A stretch of DNA of 45,325 nucleotides. Source: Myxococcus sp. (lineage in GTDB: Bacteria; Myxococcota; Myxococcia; Myxococcales; Myxococcaceae). The stretch spans positions 1 through 45,325 of the forward strand of contig JACSRE010000108.1 in NCBI GenBank assembly GCA_014879945.1. The letters run 5' to 3'. Numbering within the stretch: position 1 is the stretch's first letter; the number at the start of each line of letters is the position of its first letter. The notes under the pieces are model-generated. The model was not told where the DNA came from. It worked only from the letters and a program-made list of their open reading frames with translations, and ran no database searches. Made by a program: the position numbers and the translations under genes. Of this stretch, positions 5,862 through 45,325 are shown one piece after another.

Positions 5862-7325
<1,464 letters not shown>

Positions 7326-7410
7326 GGCGCCTCACCTAGCGCCTGCCCGAAGCGCGCGCACGCCAGACTCGGGTGGTGCGATGATGGGGCGCACGCCCCA
7401 TGGAGGTCGA

Positions 7411-8016: not shown

Positions 8017-8071
8017 CGACCGCCGTTTCGCGTCGACACCGGCCCCAGAAAGTGGTCCTTGCCCCCGCTTC

Positions 8072-29181: not shown

Positions 29182-29282
29182 ACCGTCGCTGGCGGGCGCG
29201 CTGTGGGGTCGGGTAGGGTGACACTTCGCTTGAACGGTGCGACCGGCGCGGGGGACTGACGCCAAAGCGAGTCGGAGAAGTG

Positions 29283-30800
29283 ATGCAGACCTACGTCGCC
29301 AGCTTCGTCGTGGCAGCGATCGCAGCGGCGGTCGCCACCCCGCTTGCCCGCCGCGTGGCCTTCCGGTTCAAGGTGGTCTCGACCCCTGGCGGCCGGCACA
29401 TCCACGGGCAGGTCATTCCCCGGCTTGGCGGGCTGGCGATTTTCGCAGGGGCGATGGTCACGATCCTCGGCACCGTGGTGCTCGGCCCCGTTGGCGAGCT
29501 GTTCGATGCCGAGGCGCGGTGGCGTGGGCTCGGCCTGCTGATCGGCAGCGCCGTCATGTTCGCGCTCGGCGCCGCCGACGACTTCAAGTCGGTGCGCGCG
29601 CTGCACAAGCTGCTGGTGCAGATCCTGGCCGCGTCCATCGCGTGGTCCTTCGGGTTTCGCATCGACGTCGTCGACCTGCCGCTCCTCGGGACCTTCTCGA
29701 TGGGGGTGTTTTCGCTGCCCATCACGGTGTTCTGGATCGTCGGCATCGTCAACGCGGTGAACCTCATCGACGGCCTGGACGGCCTGGCGGCCGGCGTCGT
29801 GTTCTTCGCGGGCGTCACGAACTTCGTCGTGGCCTACCTGCAGGGCACGACCTTCGTCGCGGTGGTGATGGCGACGATGGCCGGGTCGGTGTTGGGGTTT
29901 CTCTTCTTCAACTTCAACCCGGCACGCATCTTCATGGGTGACTCCGGGAGCTACTTTCTCGGGTTCGTGCTCGCCGTATGCAGCATCGCCGGCCCGCTCC
30001 AGAAGGCGTCAGCGGCCGTCTCCATCGCGGTCCCCATCGCCGCGCTCGGCGTTCCCATCATCGACACGCTGCTCGCGATGGTGCGGCGCTTTCTCGAGCG
30101 TCGGCCGCTCTTCGCGCCTGATCGGGGTCACATTCACCATCGGCTGCTCGACATGGGGATCACCCATCGTCGCGCGGTGCTGATCATCTACGGGGTGACC
30201 GTCGCGCTGTGCATTGGCGCCATCGCCATCGCCTTCGGCCGGAACTGGGAAGTGGGCGCCGCGGTGCTCGCGGTCTCGGCGGTGCTGTTCGGCCTCATTC
30301 GTTTCATCGGATACTTCGAGTACCTCGCGGTGGCGGCGCGACAGAAGAAGCGCATCAACAGCCGGCACGTCGAGTGGTTGCGCAAGGTGGTCATGCGACT
30401 GCCCGCGAGGTTCGGCGCCGCTCGGACCGAGAGCGAGGTGCTGAGCACCCTTGCGTGGCTGGCCGTCGAAGCGCGCTTCGAGTCGATTGAAGTCGTGCAG
30501 GGATCAGGTGCGACGCGCACTGCCATGTTCACCTTTCGTGGGGCTGACTATGGCGACATGGAGAAGCGCGACGTGACGGCGAGCGAGCTGCCGCTGGCTC
30601 CGGGCGCGAACGTGAGCGTCTACTTCTCGTGGCGCAGCGAGTTCGGTGACGTTCCGCCACAGATGGACATTCTGCTTCAGTTGGTCGTCGATGAACTGTC
30701 GGCGCACCTCCGAAGGGTGGGCAGCATGCTCAGCCCTGTTGAGCCGGAGCCAGTTGAGACGTCGGTTGCTGTTGCGGAGATGAAGACCGTGCGTTTGTAG
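29283..30800 (+). CDS. WecA/MraY-family initiating phosphoglycosyltransferase with soluble C-terminal domain
   Basis: 505 residues from ATG 29283 (GGAG at 29274-29277). The polytopic half has the family motifs NAVNLIDGLDGLAAGV, FMGDSGSYFLGF and DRGHIHHRLLDMGI, which bind the UDP-sugar and Mg2+. It joins a sugar-1-phosphate to undecaprenyl phosphate, the first step of polymer repeat-unit synthesis. It is about 150 residues longer than WecA: after the last TM, from about residue 350, a cytoplasmic domain (SEVLSTLAWLAVEARFESIE and MDILLQLVVDELSAHLRRVG) looks GAF-like, though this needs structural support. Its 3' end overlaps the next, convergent gene by 71 bases. Confidence 0.92.
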   Translation: MQTYVASFVVAAIAAAVATPLARRVAFRFKVVSTPGGRHIHGQVIPRLGGLAIFAGAMVTILGTVVLGPVGELFDAEARWRGLGLLIGSAVMFALGAADDFKSVRALHKLLVQILAASIAWSFGFRIDVVDLPLLGTFSMGVFSLPITVFWIVGIVNAVNLIDGLDGLAAGVVFFAGVTNFVVAYLQGTTFVAVVMATMAGSVLGFLFFNFNPARIFMGDSGSYFLGFVLAVCSIAGPLQKASAAVSIAVPIAALGVPIIDTLLAMVRRFLERRPLFAPDRGHIHHRLLDMGITHRRAVLIIYGVTVALCIGAIAIAFGRNWEVGAAVLAVSAVLFGLIRFIGYFEYLAVAARQKKRINSRHVEWLRKVVMRLPARFGAARTESEVLSTLAWLAVEARFESIEVVQGSGATRTAMFTFRGADYGDMEKRDVTASELPLAPGANVSVYFSWRSEFGDVPPQMDILLQLVVDELSAHLRRVGSMLSPVEPEPVETSVAVAEMKTVRL

Positions 30801-32085
30801 AGCGGCGCTCGGCCCGGACCGCGAGGAGCAGGAAGAGAAAGAACGGCATCATAGGGGCTCGATAGCGGCTCAACGCCCCGAGGTTCGCGGTCGAGAGCCC
30901 CGTGCCAAGCGCCAGCACGAGCACGAAGGTGACGCAGAACATCAGCACGGGTTCTTGAATGACGAAGTTGATTGCCCGCGCAAATCCTGATCCCCAGAAG
31001 GCCTGAAAGAACAAGATGAGCAGCCACGTCATCTCCAGCGCGTTGAGGACTTGCATCGCTTTGCGGGCCTCAAAAATGAACGGACGGAACAGCGAGGTAA
31101 CGAGCGCGAACGGTGCCAGGCTGAGTTGGCTGGTGAGCGAGAGATTCTGGGTGCTTTCGACGTCAACTCCAGGGCCTTCGACCGAGAAATTCGAGGCCCC
31201 CGCAACCTCGCCGGCAACTCGCCGCTGGAAGGCCATTGACTCTCCGACTGAGTCGAGTGTGAGTTTTGGAAAGAACTTGGTCGCCCCAGAGAATCCGATG
31301 AACACCACGAGGGCCGCGAGAGCGAGGTAGCCCGGCTTGAGCGCGATGGCGCCGCGATCTCGAATGACGCGTGCCCATGTGATCCACACGCCCCCCGCGA
31401 TCACGAGGGCGATGAGGACGTAGGGCTTGAAGAGTGCGATCCCGCCGCCGGCCACCAGCCCTGTGACTATTGCCAACGCGAGACGTCGGCCCTCGAGCAG
31501 CCAGCGGAAGGAAAGGACGAGCGGCCCAACAAACACCATGACCATCGGTTCCTTCAGGAGGCCGCTCGTCCAGATGATGCCGCTCGGTGAGAGCATTACG
31601 GCGAACAGAAGCAACTGGCGAGAACGAGCACGAACCACGTCTCGAAGTGCGCGATAGATGAGCACCTTCGAGACGTAGGACCAAATTGTTATCATCAGGG
31701 CACCCGCATAAAGAGAGTCTCCTAGGATGAACGAGAGTACGACCGCGACCGCCTGCATCGACCCGGTGGACGATTCGCCGACGACTTCGAACGGCAGTCG
31801 CTGTTCCTGCTGGAACAAGAGATTCAAGACTTCTGGGGCGATCGCTTCGAAGTCGAACCGCAAACCATCAGCGATTGGCACGCTGAACCGGTGGTAGGTG
31901 ATCATGTCCCCGCCCTCCGTGTAGTAGAGCGTGTAGATCAGGATCAGCCCGATGGACGCGGCGACGTGGAAGGCGAAGCTCAGCGTCAGCACGCGGCCTT
32001 CTTCACGATCGTGGAACCTCAGCACCACGGCGTGAATCGCGAGCCCCACCAGGAGCACGATCGGCGTAAAGATGAAGTCTTCCAT
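30730..32085 (-). CDS. Polytopic membrane protein, probable polysaccharide polymerase-type
   Basis: 451 residues with about 10-11 TM segments (from FIFTPIVLLVGLAIHAVVL to PMMPFFLFLLLAV). A large external loop follows the second TM (YYTEGGDMITYHRFSVPI), with SPSGIIWTSGLLKEP mid-protein, a motif seen in Wzy-like and GT-C-like polytopic proteins. It is probably a polymerase or membrane glycosyltransferase of the locus. Base composition looks more AT-rich than its neighbours, suggesting separate acquisition. Its ATG (32083-32085) overlaps the ATG of the divergent gene at 32084, and its 3' end overlaps the initiating transferase. Confidence 0.8.
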   Translation of the reverse strand: MEDFIFTPIVLLVGLAIHAVVLRFHDREEGRVLTLSFAFHVAASIGLILIYTLYYTEGGDMITYHRFSVPIADGLRFDFEAIAPEVLNLLFQQEQRLPFEVVGESSTGSMQAVAVVLSFILGDSLYAGALMITIWSYVSKVLIYRALRDVVRARSRQLLLFAVMLSPSGIIWTSGLLKEPMVMVFVGPLVLSFRWLLEGRRLALAIVTGLVAGGGIALFKPYVLIALVIAGGVWITWARVIRDRGAIALKPGYLALAALVVFIGFSGATKFFPKLTLDSVGESMAFQRRVAGEVAGASNFSVEGPGVDVESTQNLSLTSQLSLAPFALVTSLFRPFIFEARKAMQVLNALEMTWLLILFFQAFWGSGFARAINFVIQEPVLMFCVTFVLVLALGTGLSTANLGALSRYRAPMMPFFLFLLLAVRAERRSTNARSSSPQQQPTSQLAPAQQG

Positions 32086-33139
32086 GGCGCTGGCTGCTCA
32101 GTACTCCAGAACCGCCCCACTATTCGAGGTGCTCGCCAGGATTCCGCACCGGACGGCGGAGCTGCGCGAGCTCGTGCCACGGCTCGAGCCCGTCGACCTC
32201 GTGAGCGCTGCAGCTCGCCACGGCGTCAGCGCCTGGGTCGCCGAGGCCTTCAGCGCCGAGCGGCTGACGTTCGCGGCCCAGGCGCAGCTCATCGCCGACG
32301 CGAGGGCCACCGTCGCGTCGGCGCACAAGATCAAGCGGCTCACCCTCGCGGTCATCGACGCGCTGGCGACGACGGGGGTCGAGCCCGTGGCGCTCAAGGG
32401 CGCCGTGCTGGCGCAGCGGCTCTATCCGCACAGCCCCCTCTGCCGGCCATCGACCGACGTGGACGTGCTGGTTCGACCAGACGAGCTGCCGCGCGTGGCG
32501 ACGGTGCTCGAAGCGATGAGCCTCGCGCGCCAGGTCGACCAGGCCCTCGGCGACGTCTTTGAAGACCATCACCACCTGTCCTTCGCGGGCCCGCCGGGTC
32601 TCGTCGAGGTGCACTTTCGGCTGATCTCGACCCTCGGCCGCGGCCTGTTCGATGACGCCTCGGTGCGCGCTCGCACCAGCGCGTTCACCTTCGAAGGGCG
32701 AAGGGTCTTGGTGCTCTCGCCCGAAGACGAGTTCCTCTACCTCGCGACCCACGCGGCGAATCACGGGTTCCTTCGAATCGGCTGGCTGGTCGATCTCCAG
32801 CAGTTCCTTCGCTACCACCCTGCGCTCGACTTCGAGGCGATCGCGGAGCGCGCTCGCGACGCCGGGTTCCTGCAGGCCCTCTCGGTGACTCTGGGCCTGC
32901 TCGAGGGGCTGCTCGCCGTCGAGCTCCCCCGCGCGGCGCGCATCGCCGTGCCACCGCGACGCCGGCGCTGGGTTGACGCCGCCCTCTTCTCGGGCGCGCG
33001 GGTCGAGCGCGCCTCGCTCTCTGGCCATCGCCTGGGCGGCTTCGCGCTCAGGCTCTGGTTGGTCGACTCTCCGCGTCGTGGATTCCGTCACGTCCTCGAC
33101 GGCTTGAGGCGGTACGCTCGACGAGGCGCGCCCAGCTGA
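32072..33139 (+). CDS. NTP_transf_5-type nucleotidyltransferase-like protein
   Basis: 355 residues from ATG 32072; the in-frame ATG 32084 is equally possible. The motif region VEPVALKGAVLAQRLYP, CRPSTDVDVLVRPDELPRV holds the DxD of the nucleotidyltransferase fold (Asp in STDVDVLV). Later VEVHFRLIS and ATHAANHGFLRIGWLVDLQQ match the uncharacterised family often found in exopolysaccharide and exosortase loci. The substrate is unknown. It diverges from the polymerase-like gene with overlapping start codons, and its stop overlaps the O-antigen-ligase start (TGATG). Confidence 0.82.
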   Translation: MKSSMALAAQYSRTAPLFEVLARIPHRTAELRELVPRLEPVDLVSAAARHGVSAWVAEAFSAERLTFAAQAQLIADARATVASAHKIKRLTLAVIDALATTGVEPVALKGAVLAQRLYPHSPLCRPSTDVDVLVRPDELPRVATVLEAMSLARQVDQALGDVFEDHHHLSFAGPPGLVEVHFRLISTLGRGLFDDASVRARTSAFTFEGRRVLVLSPEDEFLYLATHAANHGFLRIGWLVDLQQFLRYHPALDFEAIAERARDAGFLQALSVTLGLLEGLLAVELPRAARIAVPPRRRRWVDAALFSGARVERASLSGHRLGGFALRLWLVDSPRRGFRHVLDGLRRYARRGAPS

Positions 33140-35616
33140 TGCCTTCTCAGGACTCCACGCGGTGGTGGTACGCGGCCGAAGCGGCCCTCGGCCTCGCCAT
33201 CGTCAGCCTCCCGGTCTGCCTCGGCGGCGCGCCCCCCTGGACCGCGGTCGTCTTGTTCGGCCTCGCCCTCGTCGCGCTCACCACCTGGGTGGTGGGGGCC
33301 GTCAGGCACGGGCGTCGCGCGACCTGGCACCCCGTGCTGGCGGTGCTGGCGTTCCTGACGCTCGTGGCGGCGCTCGCCCTCGTCCCGCTGCCGCCAGCGC
33401 TCCTGGCGCTCCTCTCGCCAGAGGCTGGCGAGCTGCGCGACTTCGCCCTGGTGCCCCTCGGCCTCGAGGCCCCGCGGCCCCTCACCGTCGACGCGCCCTC
33501 GACCTGGCGCGCGTTGGCGCGGCTGGCCTCGCTGCTCGCCATCGGCTTCGTCGCGCTGCAGCTCGGGCGGCTCGAGGCGTCGCGCCGAAGGCTGCTGATG
33601 GTCATCGCGGGAACCGGAGGGCTGGTCGCGGTGGTTGGCTTCGGCCACCTGCTCGCCGGCGCCGACGCGCTGTTCGGCCAGTGGCGGTTCTTCGCGACCC
33701 TTCCGTTGCTCTCGTTCTTCGGCAACAGCAACCACCTCGCGGCCTGGCTGGCGTTCTGTGGAACCGTCGCGCTCGGCCTCGGGCTCGAGGCCCGCTCCAG
33801 AGAGGCGGCGGTCGGCTGGGTGGGGCTCGGCCTGGCGTGCGGAACCGGGGTCTTCCTCTCGTTCTCGCGCGGCGGCATCGGCACCTTCGTCGTCACGTGG
33901 GCGATGGTGGGCGCGCTGCTCCTCGCCCGCCGGCAGGGGGGCGTTCGGGCGGTGTTGCCGTGGCTGGTGATCGGCGCGACCACCTTGTTCGCCCTCTCGC
34001 TCGCGAGCGAACAGCTCATCGAGCGGCTCGCCTCGGTGTCGACCGTCGAGCGGCTTCAGAAGACGAAGCTCGACCTGTGGCCGATGTTCTGGGAGGCCGC
34101 CGTCGCGTACGGCCGCGCCGGAATGGGGCCCGGCGCCTTCGAGCTGGGCTTCACCCGGTTTCAGACCACCCAGCCCGGGGTGACGTTCACGCACCCCGAG
34201 AACCTCGTCCTCCAGGGGCTGGCAGAGCTGGGCGTTCCCCTCTTCACCGTGCTGCTGGCGCTCGGGCTGTTCGCTGCCTGGCGGCTGGTTCGGCAAGCGC
34301 GCGGCGCCCTGCTGGAGCAGGTGCTGCTCCTGGCGGTGCTCGGCGCCGGCCTCCACGATCTCTTCGACTTCGCGCTCGAGCTGAACGCGCTCCCGGTCGC
34401 GGTGGTGGTCGTGCTGGGCCTCTGCGGCGCGCGCGAGCAGGGCCTGGCCCCCCAGCGGTGGGCGGTGCGAGGCTGGTGGAGCTCGCTGCCAGCGGCGCTC
34501 GCCGTCGTGGGCGTCGTGGCGCTCGCGAAGGGCCTGCCGCCGCACGGCGCGGCCGAAGAAGCGCTGCTCGGGCTGGTCGACGAGGGCGCGAGCGCCGAGC
34601 AGGTGCGCGCCGCGGCCCTCGTCTCCATCGACCGCCACCCAGCCGACTGGGTGCTCTACGCGGCCGTCGCCGATCGCTTCAGCCGCGAAGGGGCCGCGCG
34701 GGAGTCGCTGGCCTGGGTGAACCGGGTGCTCGCGCTGCGGCCCTTCGATGCGTCTGCCCACGTCGTCGCTGGCCGGGCGCTCCGACGGCTCAACCAGCCG
34801 ACGCAGGCGCTGCTCGAGTTCAAGGTCGCCTGGACCCTGGGCGACACCGCGAGCTTCGACGAGGGCCTCACCCTGGCCGCCGCGCTGGGCGCGTACGACC
34901 GGCTCCTGGTCGAAGACGCCGGGCTGCTCGGCCGAATGTGGGAGCGCTACCGGGTGATGGGGCTGCTGGCCGAGAGCAAGGCGCTGCTGGCGGCGGCCGA
35001 GCAGCTGCCCCCATCACAGGCGGTGGCCATGGAGGCCCGGGTGCTCCAGGTCTGGCAGGCGAACGCCGAGCAGGATTTTCCGCGCGCCCTCGGCGCCCTC
35101 GAGCAGCTCCCGCTCGAGGTGCGCGCCCAGCCCGAGCTGCTCATTCTCTCAGCGCGGCTTTTGGCGCAGGTCGGCCGCCTCGCCGAGGCCATCGCCCAGC
35201 TCGACGCCGTCGCGCGCCGGGAGCCGCAGCACCTGAACGTCGCGACGACGCTCGCCGAGCTGCTGGCGCTCGACAAGCGGCCCCGCGAGGCGCTGGCGGC
35301 GCTCGACCGGACCCGGCCCTTCGTCTCGGGCCCCCAGGGGCGCTCGCTGCTCTTCCAGCGCGAGGCGGGCCTGTGGGCGCAAGAAGGCCGGTGGCCGCGC
35401 GCCCTCGAGGCCCTCCAGACCGCGGCCCGCATCGAGCCGACCCGCGCCGACCTGCGCTACCGCATCGCGGAGGTGTACGAGCAGATGGGCAGCCTCCACT
35501 CGGCCATCGACGAGGTCCGCAAGGGCCGGCTGCTCGACACGCCGCAGGGCGCGAAGGCCCAGGACGCCTGGGTCAGCCGACTGCAGCTGGCGATGGAAGC
35601 GCAGCGCACCGAGTAG
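33139..35616 (+). CDS. O-antigen ligase/polymerase fused to TPR repeats
   Basis: 825 residues. The first ~480 residues hold about 11 TM segments with the Wzy_C/WaaL signature: LPLLSFFGNSNHLAAWLAF, SFSRGGIGTFVV, a large loop with GMGPGAFELGF and TFTHPENLVLQGLAELG. The last ~340 residues are periplasmic or cytoplasmic TPR-like helices (WVLYAAVADRFSREGAARES, ARLLAQVGRLAEAIAQLDAV, LRYRIAEVYEQMGSLHSAID). Such fusions join or polymerise polysaccharide chains, the TPRs probably binding partners. The start overlaps the previous stop by one base (TGATG). A possible promoter for the next gene lies 9 bases after its stop. Confidence 0.88.
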   Translation: MPSQDSTRWWYAAEAALGLAIVSLPVCLGGAPPWTAVVLFGLALVALTTWVVGAVRHGRRATWHPVLAVLAFLTLVAALALVPLPPALLALLSPEAGELRDFALVPLGLEAPRPLTVDAPSTWRALARLASLLAIGFVALQLGRLEASRRRLLMVIAGTGGLVAVVGFGHLLAGADALFGQWRFFATLPLLSFFGNSNHLAAWLAFCGTVALGLGLEARSREAAVGWVGLGLACGTGVFLSFSRGGIGTFVVTWAMVGALLLARRQGGVRAVLPWLVIGATTLFALSLASEQLIERLASVSTVERLQKTKLDLWPMFWEAAVAYGRAGMGPGAFELGFTRFQTTQPGVTFTHPENLVLQGLAELGVPLFTVLLALGLFAAWRLVRQARGALLEQVLLLAVLGAGLHDLFDFALELNALPVAVVVVLGLCGAREQGLAPQRWAVRGWWSSLPAALAVVGVVALAKGLPPHGAAEEALLGLVDEGASAEQVRAAALVSIDRHPADWVLYAAVADRFSREGAARESLAWVNRVLALRPFDASAHVVAGRALRRLNQPTQALLEFKVAWTLGDTASFDEGLTLAAALGAYDRLLVEDAGLLGRMWERYRVMGLLAESKALLAAAEQLPPSQAVAMEARVLQVWQANAEQDFPRALGALEQLPLEVRAQPELLILSARLLAQVGRLAEAIAQLDAVARREPQHLNVATTLAELLALDKRPREALAALDRTRPFVSGPQGRSLLFQREAGLWAQEGRWPRALEALQTAARIEPTRADLRYRIAEVYEQMGSLHSAIDEVRKGRLLDTPQGAKAQDAWVSRLQLAMEAQRTE

Positions 35617-35662: not shown

Positions 35663-37822
35663 GTGTCGAACTCCAGCGAAGCTCAGCTCAGCTCCAGCAT
35701 CGACCTTCGCCAGTACCTCAGGGTTCTCCTCAAGCGTAAGTGGCTGATCTTGATTGTCTTTTCGCTGGTGGTCGGGGCCACGACGCTCTGGGCCCGCAGC
35801 CAGCCGAAGGTCTTCGCGGCGCAGATCTCGCTCATCATCGACTCGAAAGAGCCGCGCTTCCTCGACAACCAGATCCAGGACGTCAATAACGACTCCACCT
35901 CGGCCTACTGGGCGAACAAGGAGTACCTCGAGACGCAGTCGAAGATCATCACCAGCCGCGCGGTCTCGCAGCGGGTGGTCGAGAAGCTGGGCCTGAACAA
36001 CGACCCCGAGTTCCTTCGCCTGACGAAGCTGCCCGAGGCGCAGCGCGACGAGGCGATGAAGCGCGCCGACGCGGTGGCGATGGTGCAGGGGCGAATCAAG
36101 GTCGAGTCGCTCAAGGACAGCCGCGTCACCTTCATCAAGATCGAAGACTCGGACCCGAACCGGGCCGCGCTCCTGGCGAACGAGGTGGCGCAGGCGTACA
36201 TCGACGAGTCGCTGTCGCAGAAGCTCAAGGTGACCGAGAACGCCTCGAAGTGGCTCGACGAGCGGCGCGACAGCCTCTCTGACGCTGCGCGCGCGAGCGA
36301 GCTGGCGCTGTACGCGTTCCGCAAGCAGTCCGACATGCTCAGCACCTCGATCGACGATCGCGCCAACATGGTGTCGTCGAGGCTGACGGCGACCAGCCAG
36401 GCGTTGACCGACGTGCAGCTGAAGATCGCCGGGCACAAGGCCCGGGTCGCGGCGATTCGGAACGTGCAGCACCAGCAGGGCTCGGACGACTCGATGTGGG
36501 CCGAGGCGCTGCCCGCCGCCCGCGAGAACCCGACGCTCCAGAAGCTCAAAGACCGCATGCTCTCGCTGCGCACCGACTGCACCGAGCTGCAGTCGCGCTA
36601 CCTGGGGGAGCACCCCAAGCTGATGGAGTGCCGCGACAAGCTCGCGCTCGTCGAGAAGGACTTTCAGCGCGAGCTGTCGAACCTCGTGGTGGGCACCGAG
36701 GCCGAGCTGCGCGAGTCGGTCGAGAAAGAGAAGAACCTGCAGGCGCTCTTCAACGAGGTGCGCGCCGAGGCCTTCGAGGTCGAGAAGAAGAAGCTCGAGC
36801 TCGACCGCCTCAAGCAGGAGTCGGACAGCGCCAAGCGGCAGTACGACTCGGTCTTCAAGCGCCTCAAAGACATCGAGCTGTCGGGCCTGCTGCGGACGTC
36901 GAACGTGCGCGTGCTCGACGCCGCGCGCCCCCAGCTCGCGCCCGTCAGGCCGAACGTGCCGCAGTCGATTCTGCTGGGCATCGTCGCGGGCCTCGTCGCC
37001 GCCATCGGCCTGGCGCTGCTGCTCGAGTTCCTGGACTCCACCGTGACGTCGCAGCAGGAGATCGAGGAGCGCATGGGCCTGACCTTCCTCGGCTTCGTGC
37101 CCTCGATTCCGCCGACCGACGGCCAGGCGAAGGACCTGCACATTCACCGCGAGCCCAAGTCGCACATCGCCGAGTGCACGCGCGCGGTCAGAACGAACCT
37201 GCTCTTCATGTCGCCCGACAAGCCGCTCAAGCGCATGCTGGTGACGTCGAGCGGGCCGCAAGAGGGCAAGTCGACGACCGCCATCAACCTCGGCATCGCC
37301 ATGGCGCAGAGCGGCCAGAAGGTGCTCATCATCGACACCGACATGCGGCGGCCGCGCCTGCACAAGGCGTTCGGCGTGCCGAACGACGTGGGGGTCTCGT
37401 CGCTGGTGGTCGGAGAGGGCACCCTGGAGGCTGCCATCAAGACGACCGAGGTGCCGGGCCTCTACCTGCTGCCCTGCGGCCCGGTGCCGCCCAACCCGGC
37501 CGAGCTGCTCCACACGCGCGCCTTCGGCGAGCTGCTCGAGACGCTCGACGGCAAGTACGACCGGGTCATCCTCGACAGCCCGCCGGTGGGGGCCGTGGCC
37601 GACGCGGTGGTGCTCGCGACGCGCGTCAACGGGGTGGTGCTGGTGCTCAAGTCGGGCGTCACCCACCGCGACGTGGCGAAGCGAACCGTGCGCGCGCTCA
37701 ACGACGTGAAGGCCGTGATGCTCGGCGCGGTGCTCAACGACGTGAACCTCGATCGCTCGAGGTACGGCGACTACTACTACGGCTACGCGTACCGGAACTA
37801 CGGCTACGGCGAGAAGAGCTGA
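35663..37822 (+). CDS. Wzz/BY-kinase polysaccharide co-polymerase (Wzc-type)
   Basis: 719 residues from GTG 35663. An N-terminal Wzz domain has TM1 (about 27-45), a long coiled-coil periplasmic part and TM2 (about 436-457). The cytoplasmic tyrosine kinase domain has Walker A GPQEGKSTT (531-539), Walker A' VLIIDTDMRRPRLHK, and Walker B VILDSPPVGAVAD. The C-terminus is a Tyr cluster (YGDYYYGYAYRNYGYG, eight Tyr) that is the autophosphorylation tail controlling oligomerisation and chain length. It follows the O-antigen-ligase gene by 46 bases and precedes a YdcF-like gene by 12. Confidence 0.95.
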   Translation: MSNSSEAQLSSSIDLRQYLRVLLKRKWLILIVFSLVVGATTLWARSQPKVFAAQISLIIDSKEPRFLDNQIQDVNNDSTSAYWANKEYLETQSKIITSRAVSQRVVEKLGLNNDPEFLRLTKLPEAQRDEAMKRADAVAMVQGRIKVESLKDSRVTFIKIEDSDPNRAALLANEVAQAYIDESLSQKLKVTENASKWLDERRDSLSDAARASELALYAFRKQSDMLSTSIDDRANMVSSRLTATSQALTDVQLKIAGHKARVAAIRNVQHQQGSDDSMWAEALPAARENPTLQKLKDRMLSLRTDCTELQSRYLGEHPKLMECRDKLALVEKDFQRELSNLVVGTEAELRESVEKEKNLQALFNEVRAEAFEVEKKKLELDRLKQESDSAKRQYDSVFKRLKDIELSGLLRTSNVRVLDAARPQLAPVRPNVPQSILLGIVAGLVAAIGLALLLEFLDSTVTSQQEIEERMGLTFLGFVPSIPPTDGQAKDLHIHREPKSHIAECTRAVRTNLLFMSPDKPLKRMLVTSSGPQEGKSTTAINLGIAMAQSGQKVLIIDTDMRRPRLHKAFGVPNDVGVSSLVVGEGTLEAAIKTTEVPGLYLLPCGPVPPNPAELLHTRAFGELLETLDGKYDRVILDSPPVGAVADAVVLATRVNGVVLVLKSGVTHRDVAKRTVRALNDVKAVMLGAVLNDVNLDRSRYGDYYYGYAYRNYGYGEKS

Positions 37823-37834
37823 CGCTCCTGGGGC

Positions 37835-38590
37835 GTGTTCTTCTTCCTCTCGAAGACGCTCGACCTGCTGCTCGACCCCTGGTGGTGGGGCGTCGGGCCC
37901 GCGCTCGCGGGGGTCGTGCTGCTCGCCGTCGGGCGGCGCCGCGCGGGGCTGGCGCTCGCCGCGGTGGGCCTGGGCACCCTCACCCTCTTCAGCGCGCCCG
38001 CGGTGTCGAACCGGCTGTGGGCCTCGCTCGAAGGCGACGCGCGCGACACGTCTCGACGAGACGGCGGGTACGACGTGGTGGTGCTCCTCGGCGGCGTGGT
38101 GGCGTCGTTCGGGGCGACGGCCGAAGAGGCGGCCTGGGGCGACAACGTCGAGCGGCTGACGGTGACCTTCGAGCTGCTCCGAACCGGCCGGGCGAGGTAC
38201 GTCATCGTCAGCGGCGGCACCCTGCGCGAGGGCCTGCCCACCGAGGCGGCGTACCTGGCGCGGCAGCTCGAGGCCTGGGGCATCGAGCCGGAGCGGGTGA
38301 TTCAGGAGCCGAGCGCCCGCAACACGCTCGAGAACGCGAAGTCCTCAAAGGCGCTCATCGACGCGCGTGGCTTTCGATCGACGCTCCTCGTCACGAGCGC
38401 GTTTCACCTGCCGCGCGCGGTGGACTGCTTCCGCGACGTGGGGCTCGAGCCCGACACGCTGCCGGTCGATTACCGCATGCGCGACCCGGCGTTCGACTCG
38501 CACTGGCTGCCGCGCGCGGCGTACCTGGAGCAGTCGGCGGCGGCGCTCCGCGAGCTGGCGGGCCGCTTCGTCTATCGCCTCAGGCGCTGA
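37835..38590 (+). CDS. YdcF/ElyC-like DUF218 membrane protein
   Basis: 251 residues from GTG 37835. Two N-terminal hydrophobic helices (about 18-60) are followed by the DUF218 domain: VVLLGGVVASFG, RYVIVSGGTLREG, SARNTLENAKSS and LLVTSAFHLPRAVDCF. E. coli members act in envelope polysaccharide or lipid-carrier homeostasis (ElyC, SanA); a similar role is likely next to the co-polymerase. It begins 12 bases after the BY-kinase stop and overlaps the convergent glycosyltransferase by 11 bases. Confidence 0.88.
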   Translation: MFFFLSKTLDLLLDPWWWGVGPALAGVVLLAVGRRRAGLALAAVGLGTLTLFSAPAVSNRLWASLEGDARDTSRRDGGYDVVVLLGGVVASFGATAEEAAWGDNVERLTVTFELLRTGRARYVIVSGGTLREGLPTEAAYLARQLEAWGIEPERVIQEPSARNTLENAKSSKALIDARGFRSTLLVTSAFHLPRAVDCFRDVGLEPDTLPVDYRMRDPAFDSHWLPRAAYLEQSAAALRELAGRFVYRLRR

Positions 38591-39653
38591 GCGCTGACGC
38601 GGTGGCGTGCTCGGCGACGACGCGTCGGAAGAGCGCCTCGTAGCGGTCGATGACGCTGGCGACGGAGTACCTGGCCTCGACGTGAGCCCGGCCAGCGGCC
38701 CCCAGGGCGGCGCGGGCCTTCGCTGAACGCCCGGCCAGCGCGAGCACCTCGCGGGTCCAGTCGCCGCATGGCTTCACCAGCGCCCCGGCGCCGCTGCCCT
38801 CGAAGAGCCCGACGTTGGCGCCGACCGCCGAGGCCACGACCGGCACGCCGCAGCTCATGTACTGGAGCATCTTGAAGCCGCACTTGCCGCGGGTCTGCTC
38901 GGTGTCGGGCAGGGGCATCAGGCCGAGGTCGAAGCTCTGCAGCGCCATCAGCTCGCGCTCGTCGCTCCATCGCCACTGCTCGACCTTCGGGTGGGCGCGG
39001 TACTCCGGGAGCGTTCCGTTCGAGACGATGCGCAGGCGCGCGCGGGGCAGCTGCTCGAGGGCGCCGAGCACCGACGGAATCACCTCGCGCAGGTAGGGGA
39101 AGTTCGAGGCCGTGCCCATCCACCCGATGACGAGCTCATGGGCGTCTCTCGGTGGCCCCGGAAGGAAGCGCTCGGTGTCGACGACCGTGGGGAGCGTCGT
39201 CGTCTTGTGCGGCGCCTGGGCGCGGGTGGCGAGGTGGTCGTTGCCGGCGATGACGTGCGAGGCCGCGCGAACGGCCTGCTTGAAGGTGCGCTCCCGCATC
39301 GTCGAGGGGGCCCCACCCACCCCGAGGTAGATGGCGTCGTCGAAGTCGAAGATCGACGGGGTGCCGCGCAGGCCTTGAACGAACTCGGGCAGGCCGGTGA
39401 CGGCCATCGTCGTCTTGTGGAGGAAGAGCAGGTCGTGGCCGCGCTGGAACAGGAGTCGACCGGCGCGCGCCACCCGGCCCTTCGCCTTGTAAAGCGGCGC
39501 CCAGGGCTTGTCGTGAACGTCGTTGTAGCGCTCGTCGTAGGCGAACTGCGCCTCGCACGAGATGCCGCGCCGCTCGAGCCAGGGGAAGAACTGGAGGCAG
39601 CGGAAGCGGCTGCCGGGGCTGATGGGGCCGTCAGTGAAGAAGAGAACGCGCAT
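38580..39653 (-). CDS. GT4-type glycosyltransferase (paralogue of 26761-27858)
   Basis: 357 residues. It starts MRVLFFTDGPISPGSRFRCL and shares most block motifs with the enzyme at 26761: SIFDFDDAIYLG, HVIAGNDHLA, TVVDTERFLPG, VIGWMGTASNFPYLRE and LMPLPDTEQTRGKCGFKML. It is an inner-membrane-associated glycosyltransferase of the locus. It is third in a minus-strand unit after two amidotransferase genes, 24 bases downstream of the second. No clear ribosome site precedes the ATG. Confidence 0.88.
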   Translation of the reverse strand: MRVLFFTDGPISPGSRFRCLQFFPWLERRGISCEAQFAYDERYNDVHDKPWAPLYKAKGRVARAGRLLFQRGHDLLFLHKTTMAVTGLPEFVQGLRGTPSIFDFDDAIYLGVGGAPSTMRERTFKQAVRAASHVIAGNDHLATRAQAPHKTTTLPTVVDTERFLPGPPRDAHELVIGWMGTASNFPYLREVIPSVLGALEQLPRARLRIVSNGTLPEYRAHPKVEQWRWSDERELMALQSFDLGLMPLPDTEQTRGKCGFKMLQYMSCGVPVVASAVGANVGLFEGSGAGALVKPCGDWTREVLALAGRSAKARAALGAAGRAHVEARYSVASVIDRYEALFRRVVAEHATASALSA

Positions 39654-39677: not shown

Positions 39678-41603
39678 CTACCCGTTGGCCCGCCACGCCT
39701 GCAGCATCAGAATGTCCCACAGGTGGTACTCCCAGGGGCGCGCGCCGCTCAGGTGCTCAGCCCAGCGTGCCAAGACGACCGTCGGGTCGAGGCCGACCGC
39801 TTCGAGCGACGCGGGGTCAAGCAGTGATTCGGCCCAGTCCCTCAGCGGGCCGCGGAGCCAGGCCCCGATGGGCACGCCGAACCCCATCTTGGGTCCCGAG
39901 ACGATGGTGTCGGGGACGTACCGGGAGAGCACCTGACGGAGAACCCACTTGCCGGTGGTGCCGCGGATCTTCAGCGAGAGCGGCAGGGTCCACGCGAACT
40001 CGACGAGGCGGTGGTCGAGCAGGGGCTCGCGGGCCTCGAGGCCGACCGCCATCGAGGCGCGGTCGACCTTCGCGAGGATGTCGTCGGGCAGGTAGCCGGT
40101 GAGGTCGCGGAGCATCATCTCGTTGGTGAGCGCCTCGACCGAGTCGCCCTCGAAGGTGCGAGGCGGCGGCGCGGGCCAGGCGCCGTCGTCACGCAGCACG
40201 TGGTCGGCGGGGGTCCAGTGCGACGAGAGGGTCTCGTAGACGCGGTCGGCCGACTCGCTCCCGAGCACGCCGGCGAGCTTGTGCATGCGAATGCCGGCCA
40301 GGCGGACGGTGGGGAGCAGGGGCCTGCCGCGCTGGAAGACCTGGTCCCAGGCGTCGGGCGAGAGCGAGGTGATGGCGCTGGCGAGCCGGCGACGGGCGGC
40401 CTCGGGCACCCAGCCGCTCGCGGCGCCGAGTCGCGGCGCGTAGAGGTGGCGGGTGTAGCCGCCGAAGAGCTCGTCGCCGCCGTCTCCCGAGAGGGCCACC
40501 GTGACGTCGCGGCGGGCCAGCTTCGAGACGAGGTAGGTGGGGATCTGCGAGGAGTCCGAGAAGGGCTCGTCGAACATCGTCGGCAGCAGCGGGATGACCT
40601 CGAGGGCGTCTCTCGCGGTGACGGTGAAGGCGGTGTGGTGGGTGTTGAGGTGGCTGGCGACGGCGCGGGCGGCGTCACCCTCGTTGAAGGCGGCCGTCTC
40701 GTTCTCGATCGAGAAGGTGTGCACCGGGCGCGAGCTCTGGGCCTGCATGAGCGCCACGACGGTGGAGGAGTCGATGCCGCCCGACAGGAACGCCCCCAGC
40801 GGGACGTCGGACACCATGCGCAGCTTGACCGCGTCGCGCAGCAGCTCGTCGAGCGCCTCGATGGCCTGGGCCTCGGTGCCGGCGAAGCGGGTCGACTGGC
40901 CCCTCCGGGCGACCTCGACCGGGTCCCAGTAGCGGGTGAGGTGGGGCTCGGCGTTCCACGCGCTGAAGGAGAGGAAGGCGCCGGGGGGGACCTTCTGGGT
41001 CGAGCGGTAGATCGACCGGCTGCCGGGGACGCAGTTCGACGAGAGGAAGCCGGCGAGGGCGGTCGGGTCGAGGGTGGTGTCGAAGCCGGGCACCACCTTG
41101 AGCGCCTTGAGCTCCGAAGCGAAGGCGAGGGCGGTCGGGGTGCGGGTGAAGTAGAGCGGCTTGAGGCCGAGGCGATCGCGAACGAGGTGGAGCCGGCGGT
41201 CGCGCTCGTCCCAGAGGCCGAAGGCGAACATGCCGATGAAGCGGCAGACGGCGGCCTCGAGGCCCCAGGCTTCGATGGCGGCGAGCATCACCTCGGTGTC
41301 GGAGCCGCCTCGCCAGGCGGGGGCGAGGCCTTCACGCTCGAGCTCATCGCGAATGGTGCGGTAGTTGTAGACCTCGCCGTTGAAGGTGATGGTGAAGCGG
41401 CCCGAGGGCGAGACCATGGGCTGCGCGCCGGCTGGGGAGAGGTCGAGAATCGAGAGGCGGCGGTGACCGAACCAGAGCCCTGGGCTGGGGGAGTGCACGC
41501 CCCACGCGTCAGGACCGCGATGGGCGAGTCGAGCGGTCGCGTCGCGGACGACGGCCTGCGCGTCGATTCGATCGGTGCCCCAGAGACCGGTGATGCCGCA
41601 CAT
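39678..41603 (-). CDS. asnB: Asparagine synthase-type amidotransferase 1
   Basis: 641 residues, glutamine-hydrolysing class. An N-terminal class II amidotransferase domain has catalytic Cys2 (MCGITGLWG), HRRLSILDLSPAG and FNGEVYNYRTIRDEL. The synthetase domain has the PP-loop PLGAFLSGGIDSSTVVAL, LSGDGGDELFGGY, VGLEAREPLLDHRLVEFAW and KMGFGVPIGAW. In polysaccharide loci such enzymes probably amidate a sugar acid or peptide rather than making asparagine. It lies 12 bases after its paralogue and is shorter in base-composition contrast: this gene is very GC-rich, the next one less so. GAGGAA precedes the ATG. Confidence 0.92.
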   Translation of the reverse strand: MCGITGLWGTDRIDAQAVVRDATARLAHRGPDAWGVHSPSPGLWFGHRRLSILDLSPAGAQPMVSPSGRFTITFNGEVYNYRTIRDELEREGLAPAWRGGSDTEVMLAAIEAWGLEAAVCRFIGMFAFGLWDERDRRLHLVRDRLGLKPLYFTRTPTALAFASELKALKVVPGFDTTLDPTALAGFLSSNCVPGSRSIYRSTQKVPPGAFLSFSAWNAEPHLTRYWDPVEVARRGQSTRFAGTEAQAIEALDELLRDAVKLRMVSDVPLGAFLSGGIDSSTVVALMQAQSSRPVHTFSIENETAAFNEGDAARAVASHLNTHHTAFTVTARDALEVIPLLPTMFDEPFSDSSQIPTYLVSKLARRDVTVALSGDGGDELFGGYTRHLYAPRLGAASGWVPEAARRRLASAITSLSPDAWDQVFQRGRPLLPTVRLAGIRMHKLAGVLGSESADRVYETLSSHWTPADHVLRDDGAWPAPPPRTFEGDSVEALTNEMMLRDLTGYLPDDILAKVDRASMAVGLEAREPLLDHRLVEFAWTLPLSLKIRGTTGKWVLRQVLSRYVPDTIVSGPKMGFGVPIGAWLRGPLRDWAESLLDPASLEAVGLDPTVVLARWAEHLSGARPWEYHLWDILMLQAWRANG

Positions 41604-41615
41604 GGTGTTGGTTCC

Positions 41616-43436
41616 TCAGGGAAGTGCGGAGTTCGCGCGAAGGTCGCGGTCTCGCCAGGCGTTGAGAGCGTTGCTGGCCCACTGCTCCATCGGGCGCGTG
41701 GGGTCGGCGCCCCTGAGGCCGCTTTGCCACGTCGCGAGTGGAACCCCGAAGCCCATCTTCTTCCGGTTCACGGCGGCGTCGACGAGCAGGTCTCGACAAG
41801 CGCGCTTGAGCACCACCTTCGTCTCGGTTCCGCGGAGCTTCGTGTGGCCTGGGAGCGAGAAGGCGTACTCCATCAGCGCGGTGTCGAGGAACGGTGCCCG
41901 ACACTCGAGGCTCGCGGCCATCGAGGCGCGGTCGACCTTCACGTTGAGGTCGTCGAGAAGGTAGGTGCGCGCGTTGGCGTAGAGGATCTGGTTCAGTGCG
42001 TCGGCGCCGCGGTTGCGTGCGTGTTCGCAGAGGTCGACGTACCGCTGGCCGAGCTGTGGGTCCGAAACCACCACCTCGGCGCCGGCGAGCCGCTCGTTCA
42101 GTTCGGCCGCCGAGTAATACGACACCCAGCTGCGCAGGCGGTCGGGAAGGTCCTTCGTGGCCCGGTTCAGGAACCGATGGGCGCGCGCTGGGAGCCGGGA
42201 GTCCCCGGGGCGCTCCGGAACGAATGAGACGAGGCGGTTCATCACGCGTCGAAGTGGCCGCGGCACGCGCTCGGCAGCCAGCACCGCCGCAAAGCGCGGG
42301 TAGCCTGCGAACACCTCATCGCCGCCGTCGCCAGTCAGCGCGACTGTGCAGCCGGCTTCACGCGTCAGCTTTGAGACAAGGTAGGTGGGAATCGAGCTTG
42401 AGTCGCCGAACGGTTCATCGAAATGCCAGGCGAGTCTGTCGACGAGCTCGAATGCTGCGGGTTTCACCTTGAACTCGGTGTGGTCGGTACCGTAGCGCTC
42501 GGCGACCATGCGCGCGTACTTCGTCTCGTCAAATTCAGGCGAGCCCTCGAAGCCGATGCTGAAGGTCTTGATGGGCTTCGTCGATTGCTGCGCCATTGCC
42601 GCGACCACCAAGGACGAGTCGAGCCCGCCCGAGAGGAACGCTCCCAGCGGCACGTCGGCGACCATTCGTCGCCTCACGGCCGCGAGAAACAGCTTTCGGA
42701 CCTCGTGCTCGACCTCGCGCCAGTCATCTTCGCTCTCGACGCGACGCTCAGGCCCGAGCGGGAAGTCCCAATAAGTCTCGGCATACGTCTCGCGGCGGCC
42801 CCAGGCGAGCACCTCGAACGTCGCGGGCTGGAGCTTGCGGATCTGCGCATAGAAGGTGTGCGGGGTGGGCACGTACCCGTGTGAAAGGAACTGTGCCGCG
42901 GCTTCGGGCCACTCACGGGTGTTGATGTTTGGGTGGCTCAAAATGGCCTTGATCTCGGAGCCGAAGACGAGCTTCTCTGTGTCCTCGTATACGTAGAGCG
43001 GCTTCTTTCCGGTGCGGTCGCGCGCGAGGAGCAACTGGCGAGAGCGACCATCCCACAAGGCGATCGCGAACATCCCGTCGAGCCGGCCGATGGCTCGCTG
43101 ACCCCACTGAAGCCACGCTGCGAGGATGACCTCGGTGTCGCTCTGGCTCTTGAATCGGTGGCCCAACCCCTCGAGTTCGGCCCGCAGTTCCCGGAAGTTG
43201 TAGATCTCTCCGTTGAAGGCAATCCAGACGCTGCCATCGTCTGTGCTCATCGGCTGCGCGGCGTCGGGGCTCAGATCGATGATGGCGAGGCGCCGATGTG
43301 CGAGACCTCCTCCGGGGAATACGTGCACCCCTTCGCCGTCGGGCCCACGGTGCGCTTGCGCAGTTGCCATCGTCCGCAGCAACTCGGCCGGTGGCGTCCT
43401 GCCGTCGCGATAGATGACCCCAGAGATGCCGCACAT
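41616..43436 (-). CDS. asnB: Asparagine synthase-type amidotransferase 2
   Basis: 606 residues with the same domain order: Cys2 (MCGISGVIYRDG), HRRLAIIDLSPDAAQPM, FNGEIYNFRELRAEL, PP-loop PLGAFLSGGLDSSLVVAAM, LTGDGGDEVFAGYPRF, AASLECRAPFLDTALMEYAF and KMGFGVPLATW. The sequence differs too much from the next gene for a recent duplication, so the two may act on different substrates. It begins the minus-strand unit and diverges from a glycosyltransferase at 43536; no clear ribosome site is seen. Base composition seems more AT-rich than the neighbours. Confidence 0.92.
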   Translation of the reverse strand: MCGISGVIYRDGRTPPAELLRTMATAQAHRGPDGEGVHVFPGGGLAHRRLAIIDLSPDAAQPMSTDDGSVWIAFNGEIYNFRELRAELEGLGHRFKSQSDTEVILAAWLQWGQRAIGRLDGMFAIALWDGRSRQLLLARDRTGKKPLYVYEDTEKLVFGSEIKAILSHPNINTREWPEAAAQFLSHGYVPTPHTFYAQIRKLQPATFEVLAWGRRETYAETYWDFPLGPERRVESEDDWREVEHEVRKLFLAAVRRRMVADVPLGAFLSGGLDSSLVVAAMAQQSTKPIKTFSIGFEGSPEFDETKYARMVAERYGTDHTEFKVKPAAFELVDRLAWHFDEPFGDSSSIPTYLVSKLTREAGCTVALTGDGGDEVFAGYPRFAAVLAAERVPRPLRRVMNRLVSFVPERPGDSRLPARAHRFLNRATKDLPDRLRSWVSYYSAAELNERLAGAEVVVSDPQLGQRYVDLCEHARNRGADALNQILYANARTYLLDDLNVKVDRASMAASLECRAPFLDTALMEYAFSLPGHTKLRGTETKVVLKRACRDLLVDAAVNRKKMGFGVPLATWQSGLRGADPTRPMEQWASNALNAWRDRDLRANSALP

Positions 43437-43535
43437 GACGAAGGCAAGAACCTCAGTGCCGGGCGCGCCGGCCGATATTCAGGGCTCGTACCATGAATGC
43501 TTGAGAACGTACTTCGTGGCAAAAGGCACGGCGAG

Positions 43536-44774
43536 ATGGCTCGCGCTCCGCTGCTCTACCTCACCCAAGACGGCCTCCTTGAGCCACTGAGCCACAGCCA
43601 GGTAGTACGGGTTGTGGAGGGCCTCGCGCGCAAGGGCTGGCGGTACCGGATCGTCTCGCTCGAGAAGGAGAAGGACCTGGCAGACTCGCGCCGTGTCAGT
43701 GCTCTGCGAGCCCGACTGGCGGACGTAGGTGTCCAGTGGGACTTTGAGGCCTTCGACTGGTCTCAATCGAGTCTTGCTGCCGGGCGAAACCTCGGCACCC
43801 TCGTGAGCCGCGCAGTCGAACTGGCACGCGCCGAGAAGGTGAGCGCGATTCACGCGAGAGCCTATGTGCCAGCCGTCGCCGCACTCGCAGCGTGGAATGC
43901 GACCGGCCTGCCCTGGATCTTTGACGCGCGCGGTTTCTGGATCGACGAACGCCTCGAAGAGGGGCGGTGGTTTACCACGCCGCTGAGGCTTGGCATTGCG
44001 CGCGGCCTCGAACATCAGCTCTTCACCACGGCCTCGGGTGTGGTGACGCTGACGGAGCTGCAGGCCAGGGAGGTCGAGGAACGTTTTCGTCCGCTGGGGC
44101 GGCGTTCGGTCGCTTGCATCACCACGACCGCCGACTACACGGACTTTGTGCGCCGGCCTACCTCGGCGCTCAAGCGAGTTCCCGCTGAGCTGGTTGATCG
44201 CCTAAGCAAGAAGCGTGTCATCTCGATAATCGGGTCAATCAACCGCTCCTACCTCGTTGACGAGACGATCGATCTTGCGCGGAGGATTCTGGCGAAGTCG
44301 CGCCAGGCGCACCTACTCGTGCTGAGCGCACAGCGAGACGAGTACGCGCGACGGCTTACCGCGCTCGGCGTGCCGCTCGAGCGCGTCACCATCACTCGTG
44401 CAGAACACGACGCGATGCCTGAGTGGCTCTCCTTGGTCGAGTGGTGCCTGCTGGTTCTCAATCCGTCCAGTCCGGCGAAGCGCGCATCGATGCCGACCAA
44501 GCTGGGCGAACTCTTCGCCTCAGGCGTCAGGCCGATTCAGTACGGGTGCAATGACGAGGTGAGCGACTGGGTGCGCCGGGCAGGGACGGGACTTGTGCTT
44601 GCGTCCGTTGAGTCGGCCGAACTCGAGCGCGCAGCGGAGTTCGTCGCGGAGTCTGCGACTCTCGACGAGCGCTCGTTTGCCCGCGCTCGCAACGTCACCG
44701 CTGGCCACTTTTCCCTGGCGGCTGGAGTCGAGAAGTACCACCGCCTGCTCGCGCAGGTGCTCGCTATCGGGTGA
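43536..44774 (+). CDS. GT4-type glycosyltransferase
   Basis: 412 residues from ATG 43536 (MARAPLLYLTQDGLLEPLSH); two in-frame upstream starts give no conserved residues. It is a GT-B fold enzyme: N-terminal SQVVRVVEGLARKGW, AIHARAYVPAVAALA, WIFDARGFWIDERLEEG, and a C-terminal donor domain with ISIIGSINRSYLVDETI and SMPTKLGELFASGVRPI. Divergence from the two paralogous GT4s suggests a different sugar. It has a more AT-rich look than the GC-rich centre of the locus. Its stop overlaps the convergent Gly-rich gene by 11 bases. Confidence 0.82.
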   Translation: MARAPLLYLTQDGLLEPLSHSQVVRVVEGLARKGWRYRIVSLEKEKDLADSRRVSALRARLADVGVQWDFEAFDWSQSSLAAGRNLGTLVSRAVELARAEKVSAIHARAYVPAVAALAAWNATGLPWIFDARGFWIDERLEEGRWFTTPLRLGIARGLEHQLFTTASGVVTLTELQAREVEERFRPLGRRSVACITTTADYTDFVRRPTSALKRVPAELVDRLSKKRVISIIGSINRSYLVDETIDLARRILAKSRQAHLLVLSAQRDEYARRLTALGVPLERVTITRAEHDAMPEWLSLVEWCLLVLNPSSPAKRASMPTKLGELFASGVRPIQYGCNDEVSDWVRRAGTGLVLASVESAELERAAEFVAESATLDERSFARARNVTAGHFSLAAGVEKYHRLLAQVLAIG

Positions 44775-45312
44775 AGACGATGCCCGCGGCGCCCGCTTGG
44801 CCGGCTCCTGAGAGTCCGGCGCCGCCAAGGCCACCTCCGACGAAGACGTTTCCGATCGTGGTGAAGCTGGCCGCGCCGCCATCGCGCGCCTCAAGGTGCA
44901 CACGCCCACCTCCGCCACCGCCACCACCACCGCCGAGCGTCGGACTGGTTCGGCTCACGCCCGTGCCACCACGGCCACCGAGCGCGGAGATTGACCCGCG
45001 GTTCGAGAACACATCGACCGCGAAGAGCCATGAGCCGCCAGCTCCACCGCCCCCGCCCGCAGCGAGAGCGTACGCGCCCACCGGCGAATCGCCGGAGCTC
45101 CCGTCTGCGCTCAAGAGACCGTCGTTGAGGAACCGCACTGCGTGAACTCTGACGATCCCGCCGCCATTTCCACCCGCACCAAGGCACGCTTCTGGTGGGA
45201 AGGTCACCATCAAGGTCCCGGACGAGCCGCCACCTCCGCCACCGAAAGCGGGCGCGACCGAGGGAAGGCCCTCAGGTTCACCGGGCAGACCGCCATCCGC
45301 AGTCCCAAAGGG
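44764..45312 (-). CDS. Gly-rich surface-type protein, C-terminal fragment (runs off right end)
   Basis: The frame is open from base 45312, where adapter sequence begins, to a TAG at 44764-44766: 182 residues of the C-terminus. Much of it is glycine (GGNGGG, LAAGGGGGAGGSW, GGGGGGGGGGRVHLEARDG) mixed with beta-type repeats such as RFLNDGLLSADGSSG, VFSNRGSISALGGRGG and FVGGGLGGAGLSGAG. Its composition resembles extracellular adhesin-like proteins with Gly-rich turns. A TTG at 45213 could be read as a start, but the same frame is open and similar in style further upstream, so a longer protein is likely. Confidence 0.75.
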   Translation of the reverse strand, partial: PFGTADGGLPGEPEGLPSVAPAFGGGGGGSSGTLMVTFPPEACLGAGGNGGGIVRVHAVRFLNDGLLSADGSSGDSPVGAYALAAGGGGGAGGSWLFAVDVFSNRGSISALGGRGGTGVSRTSPTLGGGGGGGGGGRVHLEARDGGAASFTTIGNVFVGGGLGGAGLSGAGQAGAAGIVFTR

Positions 45313-45325
45313 CTGTCTCTTATAC
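45313..45325. other. Sequencing adapter remnant (Tn5/Nextera mosaic end)
   Basis: CTGTCTCTTATAC is the first 13 bases of the transposase mosaic-end sequence used in tagmentation libraries. It lies exactly at the contig end. It is not genomic and should be trimmed. Confidence 0.93.

Follow-up and report, generated by a model that had tools for sequence, protein, structure and literature searches.

Two amidotransferase genes in a polysaccharide locus

The stretch of DNA analysed (hereafter the window) is one whole contig (C351) of 45,325 nucleotides from the draft genome of Myxococcus sp. GCA_014879945.1 (G000; 7.7 Mb in 448 contigs, 98.7% complete). It carries two genes for AsnB-type glutamine amidotransferases, here named gene 1 (transcribed first) and gene 2 (second), which lie on the minus strand as intact open reading frames (ORFs) with only 12 bases between them (Table 1). 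A first-pass annotation had described two clearly divergent enzymes of the asparagine-synthase type, each with its full catalytic set, placed in tandem in a polysaccharide locus and followed by a glycosyltransferase. All of this was borne out by the ORFs, the Pfam matches and the residue alignment reported below, the transferase being a GT4-type enzyme encoded after gene 2 on the same strand. That annotation missed the shortened C-terminus of the gene 1 product and the fact that, among the six genomes found to carry both genes, they are adjacent only in G000. Comparison of these genomes suggests that the tandem is probably the junction left by the loss of a cassette of 15–20 kb, both genes, putatively for sugar-carboxylate amidotransferases, having been kept.

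Both proteins begin with MCGI and matched the Pfam domains GATase_7 (155 bits for gene 1, 139 bits for gene 2) and Asn_synthase (309 and 365 bits), scores far beyond chance; GATase_6 was matched by both as well. Alignment with E. coli AsnB showed that both keep the equivalents of Cys2, Arg50, Asn75, Glu77 and Asp99 (ORF numbering), together with the PP-loop SGG(L/I)DS and the Lys at E. coli position 450. In enzymes of this family the N-terminal Cys2 domain frees ammonia from glutamine, and the C-terminal PP-loop domain uses ATP to turn a carboxylate into an acyl-adenylate, from which the ammonia forms an amide. The two proteins are 41% identical over 622 columns.

Close orthologs were surveyed in 145 genomes of the order (E < 1e-220 for gene 1, E < 1e-225 for gene 2). 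Gene 1 was found in 11 of them, gene 2 in nine, and both in six: G000, four relatives of the same genus (G131, G132, G134 and G135) and G088, which belongs to another genus. The gene 1 product, with 40 residues after GFGVP, is ∼30 residues shorter at its C-terminus than the orthologs in other genera; the motif GFG(V/I)P is followed by 33–52 residues in each of the five members of the genus that carry the gene and by 65–82 in six genomes of other genera. A frameshift was ruled out, since all five genus members are short at this place, and the shortened protein still ends in a helix-like manner. An AlphaFold (AF2) model of the gene 1 product had a mean predicted local distance difference test (pLDDT) score of 84.9, with values below 50 for residues 564–606. 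The solved structure nearest to it in fold was TsnB9 (PDB 7ylz), then E. coli AsnB (1ct9), and 7ylz was also the best solved relative by sequence for both proteins.

The neighbourhood between 26.7 and 44.8 kb is a Wzy-type polysaccharide locus. Family scans, which took in 20 of the window's ORFs, revealed a WecA/MraY-type initiating enzyme, four GT4-type transferases, a Wzy_C/TPR protein, a Wzz/BY-kinase fusion and an ElyC-like protein. A homologue of the transferase gene divergent from gene 1 lies within ∼2.3 kb of gene 1 in eight of the 10 other ortholog loci, the exceptions being G088 and G094. The 451-aa protein has homologues in the relatives' loci (35–66% identity) and is possibly a polymerase-like membrane protein. 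A genome-wide search for flippases (PF01943) gave two matches in G000, neither on the window contig. At the contig's end (44764–45324, minus strand) a Gly-rich low-complexity protein runs off the sequence; this end aligns at the DNA level with G135 (L157), which has a 666-aa ORF at 7238–9238.

Table 1. Features of the locus, by position in the window
Feature	Position	Strand	Basis	Remark
Gene 1: AsnB-type glutamine amidotransferase, 606 aa	41616–43436	-	ORF, Pfam	Shortened C-terminal segment
Gene 2: AsnB-type glutamine amidotransferase, 641 aa	39678–41603	-	ORF, Pfam	Full-length C-terminal segment
Junction: 12-base spacer and gene 1 stop codon	41604–41618	-		15–20 kb of other genes at this place in G132 and G134
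GT4-type glycosyltransferase, divergent from gene 1	43497–44774	+	Pfam	
GT4-type glycosyltransferase, after gene 2	38580–39653	-	Pfam	Ortholog after gene 2 in 4/4 same-genus relatives with both genes
DUF218/ElyC-like envelope protein	37835–38590	+	Family scan	
Wzz-type chain-length protein fused to BY-kinase	35663–37822	+	Family scan	
Wzy_C (O-antigen ligase/polymerase type) and TPR protein	33139–35616	+	Pfam	
Nucleotidyltransferase, family NTP_transf_5	32072–33139	+	Pfam	Uncharacterised
Conserved 451-aa protein	30730–32085	-	No Pfam or NCBIfam match	∼8 predicted transmembrane segments
WecA/MraY-type phosphoglycosyltransferase	29280–30800	+	Family scan	Initiating enzyme
GT4 glycosyltransferase	28063–29181	+	Family scan	
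GT4 glycosyltransferase	26761–27858	-	Family scan	

Ancestry and arrangement in related genomes

A tree of 97 rows (94 different), drawn from 40 of 80 loci, was built with AsnB-like proteins shorter than 560 aa and near-copies left out; it was rooted on E. coli AsnB, the sole named housekeeping reference, whose branch is very long. Each of the two genes fell, with its orthologs, into its own supported clade. In a second tree of 45 rows, taken from the same set and used for an approximately unbiased (AU) test, each group lay on one side of a branch with support 100, and a joint clade of gene 1 and gene 2 was rejected (p-AU 7e-10). Tandem duplication could therefore be ruled out as the source of the pair. 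The first-pass annotation had suggested placing both genes in an AsnB tree; the separate clades are firm, while the finding that neither gene adjoins E. coli AsnB is weak given its long-branch position. It had also noted that one gene is AT-richer and that the origins may differ. Gene 1 is indeed so (65.6% against 71.3% GC; third-position GC 0.82 against 0.94), but this is shared by relatives: across the genus, third-position GC spans 0.75–0.83 for gene 1 and 0.85–0.95 for gene 2, and gene 1 is the lower in the four same-genus relatives (in G134 barely, 0.83 against 0.85) and in G088. A recent import of gene 1, and with it a different recent origin, was discarded on these grounds.

Outside G000 the two genes stand apart. 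They keep the order and orientation seen in the window at distances of ∼15.3 kb in G132, ∼20.4 kb in G134 and ∼14.8 kb in G088; in G131 and G135 they lie on different contigs, each beside other genes. They are not adjacent in any of these five genomes, and each is linked to partners of its own; the pair is not a conserved one and most likely not an evolved two-step enzyme couple, and the idea of a dedicated sequential pair, raised in the first-pass annotation, is not supported. A third, divergent AsnB-type gene was seen between the two orthologs of G088 (L153:7541–9403, minus strand), with a very long branch in the tree.

The four same-genus relatives have genes for nonulosonic acids and acetamidino sugars beside the members of the pair, as parts of one gene set lying between the two genes (G132, G134) or next to them on their contigs (G131, G135). 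This set includes NeuB fused to GNAT with a cytidylyltransferase (G131, G132 and G134; the NeuB of G135 is on a third contig, C546), PseB-like and LegB-like dehydratases, methyltransferases, a Polysacc_synt-type flippase, a DegT-type aminotransferase (not in the examined parts of G131), and the N-acetyl-sugar amidotransferase WbuX with its partners HisH and HisF/WbuZ, of which G132 has more distant versions. Searches of 15 chosen genomes for NeuB (E ≤ 1e-40) and WbuX (E ≤ 1e-20) found them in eight and 12 genomes, respectively, both being present in all four same-genus genomes with the two amidotransferases. Neither was found in the G000 genome at these thresholds, where a weak WbuX match (21 bits) remained below the cutoff. 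In other genera, gene 1 is near WbuX (G051, G130), HisH/HisF (G094) or nonulosonic-acid genes (G052) at four of six loci; those without such a link are G088 and G050, whose contig ends close by.

Aligned with its relatives, the window shows DNA homology up to the start of gene 2 in G134 and G135 (41604–41605), to 41533 in G131 and to 41472 in G132, and the homology resumes within gene 1 at 41717–41824; the difference between the window and its relatives thus falls within the end of gene 1 and the spacer. With DNA identity of just ∼72–78% to even the nearest relatives at the junction, no base-level breakpoint could be set. A ribosome-binding-site-like stretch, GAGGA, precedes gene 2 and is overlapped by the stop codon of gene 1. 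The window is free of N, and the 18-mers around the junction do not recur elsewhere in it, for which reason a repeat-mediated collapse within the window was ruled out. The rmlBDA genes, which are beside gene 2 in G132, are on another contig in G000 (C55; 87% identical DNA).

Asparagine synthesis or amidation of sugar acids

For both proteins the top NCBIfam model by E-value was TIGR03108 (eps_aminotran_1, the XrtA/PEP-CTERM amidotransferase), yet their scores (576.3 bits for gene 1, 541.4 bits for gene 2) are far below its cutoff of 816.9. Given these scores, and since exosortase (PF09721) was found in none of the six genomes searched (G000 and five relatives), an XrtA/PEP-CTERM system was ruled out. 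The cutoff of the asparagine synthase B model NF006949 (PRK09431), 499 bits, was missed too (288.2 and 256.5 bits). Among the other AsnB-type genes of G000, two are full-length (on C397 and C398) and three are weak matches. The C398 gene also scored below the NF006949 cutoff (310 bits), its best model being the asparagine-synthase model TIGR01536 (517 bits, against 432 bits for TIGR03108). At E. coli AsnB position 349, a residue that may separate the two functions, its product has Glu and those of genes 1 and 2 have Asp. The C398 gene would be the likelier asparagine synthetase of G000; it lies at L167:9397–11385 (plus strand), with a flippase-type gene ∼16.5 kb off on the same contig.

A UDP-glucose-dehydrogenase-like (TuaD-like) gene stands ∼110 bases from gene 1, and divergent from it, in G088, and ∼2.4 kb away in G052, which would support a uronic-acid substrate. 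The likeliest activity of both enzymes would be to amidate sugar carboxylates at the expense of ATP and glutamine, as WbpS does. To our knowledge, few AsnB-type enzymes of polysaccharide loci have a proven sugar substrate.

Origin of the tandem and comparison with known systems

According to the explanation we favour, gene 1 and gene 2 would originally have flanked a 15–20 kb block for sugar synthesis (nonulosonic acid, acetamidino modification, flippase). With this block missing in G000, the genes would have met across the 12-base spacer, possibly with a coupled start. Both would act as glutamine-dependent amidotransferases on building blocks of the surface polysaccharide, the likeliest substrates being sugar carboxylates such as nucleoside-diphosphate-hexuronic acids, which would become uronamides as by WbpS and WbqG; each enzyme may serve a different sugar or position.

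Several observations weigh against this explanation. Both proteins pass the TIGR01536 cutoff of 267.1 (506.5 bits for gene 1, 461.3 bits for gene 2); a clear XrtA-type enzyme passes it equally (497 bits), so this match is no proof of asparagine synthesis, and it illustrates how easily AsnB-type enzymes of polysaccharide loci are annotated as asparagine synthases. There is no nucleotide-sugar dehydrogenase on the window contig, and the two in G000, one of them TuaD-like (on C362), are on other contigs, unlinked to the pair. The first-pass proposal of two different amidations, for example of uronic acids, accordingly holds in part: two lineages are present and sugar-acid amidation is the most plausible function, but uronic acids are a presumption. 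The characterised uronamide enzymes WbpS and WbqG are outside the rows of the tree. With regard to the loss itself, the window falls outside the four same-genus relatives in both clades (Shimodaira–Hasegawa-like approximate likelihood-ratio test, SH-aLRT, 92 and 91), the interval of G088 holds other genes, and G000 has a weak NeuB-type match on C270 (36 bits) that is above the Pfam cutoff. In another genome of the genus, G136, which lacks close orthologs of gene 1 and gene 2, NeuB and WbuX share a contig; the link between cassette and amidotransferases is thus not a strict one. Finally, the junction was seen as assembled sequence in a 448-contig assembly.

The sister position of the window would suit a different history, in which the two genes were adjacent to begin with and only later received the nonulosonic-acid cassette between them, in a common ancestor of the four other genus members. 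Among these relatives NeuB, the LegB- and PseB-like proteins and the cytidylyltransferase are 78–96% alike, against 72–83% for the gene 1 copies, a pattern that would fit a more recent gain or exchange but also a slower pace of evolution. Other cassette proteins (the flippase, and HisH/HisF of G132) are far less alike (29–46%). We consider this history unlikely. Loss in G000 rather than gain elsewhere is, in our judgement, fairly likely, because G088, in another genus, has the two genes apart in the same orientation and because the nearness of gene 1 to WbuX, HisH/HisF or nonulosonic-acid genes in most of the other-genus loci points to an old link. An error of assembly that skipped the cassette might be suspected from the fragmentation of the genome and from the other sequence found beside the genes in all five other genomes, but it is improbable: the window has neither an N nor a shared 18-mer near the junction, NeuB and WbuX were not found in this nearly complete assembly, and the way in which the gene 1 stop codon overlaps the GAGGA stretch looks natural.

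Other alternatives concern what the enzymes do. They could be idle remnants of a lost nonulosonic-acid/acetamidino pathway, given that WbuX/HisH/HisF modules lie next to the two genes or between them in relatives and that an asnB gene, predicted beside pse genes in T. forsythia, was proposed to form an acetamidino group (PMC6120980). This seems quite unlikely, since neither frame is broken and the active-site residues that were checked are in place despite divergence from the four genus relatives (71–73% identity for gene 1, 76–78% for gene 2), and the acetamidino step has enzymes of its own in WbuX, HisH and HisF. It is likewise very doubtful that one or both are ordinary asparagine synthetases that stand in a polysaccharide locus by chance: both score above the TIGR01536 cutoff, but they are in such a locus in the relatives too, the C398 gene fits that role better by model scores and by its Glu at position 349, and the tree does not place them beside E. 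coli AsnB, a weak argument.

The loss of the cassette can tentatively be taken further, although we would not give this extension much weight. The two genes may be the conserved ends of an exchangeable sugar cassette, in a process resembling capsule switching, with G000 as a natural empty allele; its polymer would keep two amidations, lose the nonulosonic acid and acetamidino groups, and rely on a flippase encoded elsewhere, and the shorter gene 1 C-terminus of all five genus members would reflect a change of substrate. In any case, gene adjacency as a sign of a common pathway would mislead here, the tandem being best explained by the missing cassette. The genus also offers a natural comparison: nonulosonic-acid/acetamidino genes are lacking in one lineage and present in four, and both AsnB-type enzymes are kept by all of them; this suggests that the two enzymes act independently of that pathway. 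All in all, an ordinary enzyme family stands in an expected place, and the first reading is corrected in that the tandem is most likely a missing-cassette junction and not a dedicated two-step pair.

A literature search on Myxococcus exopolysaccharide, Wzx and asparagine synthase returned no matching publication, and the comparison was made with systems from other bacteria. One paper describes PGN_1234/WbpS as needed for a uronamide and assigns WbpS and WbqG to eps_aminotran_1 (PMC7468200). Like the present enzymes, WbpS (P. aeruginosa; PGN_1234 in P. gingivalis) and WbqG (E. coli O121) are of AsnB type and belong to surface-polysaccharide loci, a likeness drawn from published description. The window shares that setting, with Cys2 glutaminase and PP-loop synthetase domains intact, and differs in having two genes in direct succession. 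The hydroxyamidotransferase TsnB9 and E. coli AsnB, the solved structures named above, are 29–30% and 24–25% identical, respectively, in fold alignment. Of two further papers, one cites two glutamine-dependent asparagine synthases as required for floc formation (PMC7662799) and the other lists, for a Sphingomonas polysaccharide locus, an 'Amidotransferase, exosortase associated', presumably of AsnB type, with WbuX, HisF2 and HisH, all of them transposon targets in a colony-morphology screen (PMC11340318).

Loci with several AsnB-type genes are already known, as psc1 of Rubrivivax and locus L080 of Alishewanella jeotgali demonstrate. A paper on psc1 reports three wbpS-like genes in a polysaccharide cluster, with a mutant phenotype for one (PMC3684757). 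A motif search of 80 loci, 50 of which had at least 12 kb of sequence, found a second AsnB-type gene in the flank of at least four, a lower bound, one of them directly adjacent. Adjacent pairs occur in Alishewanella and in G025, a genome of the same order (L173:5411–7420 and from 5423 down, minus strand, the second start overlapping the preceding gene). The two genes of L080 are 3 bases apart, and the first is a TIGR03108 member above the cutoff (1012 bits), unlike either gene of the window. In contrast to the psc1 and L080 loci, the pair described here meets at the place where its relatives carry a cassette.

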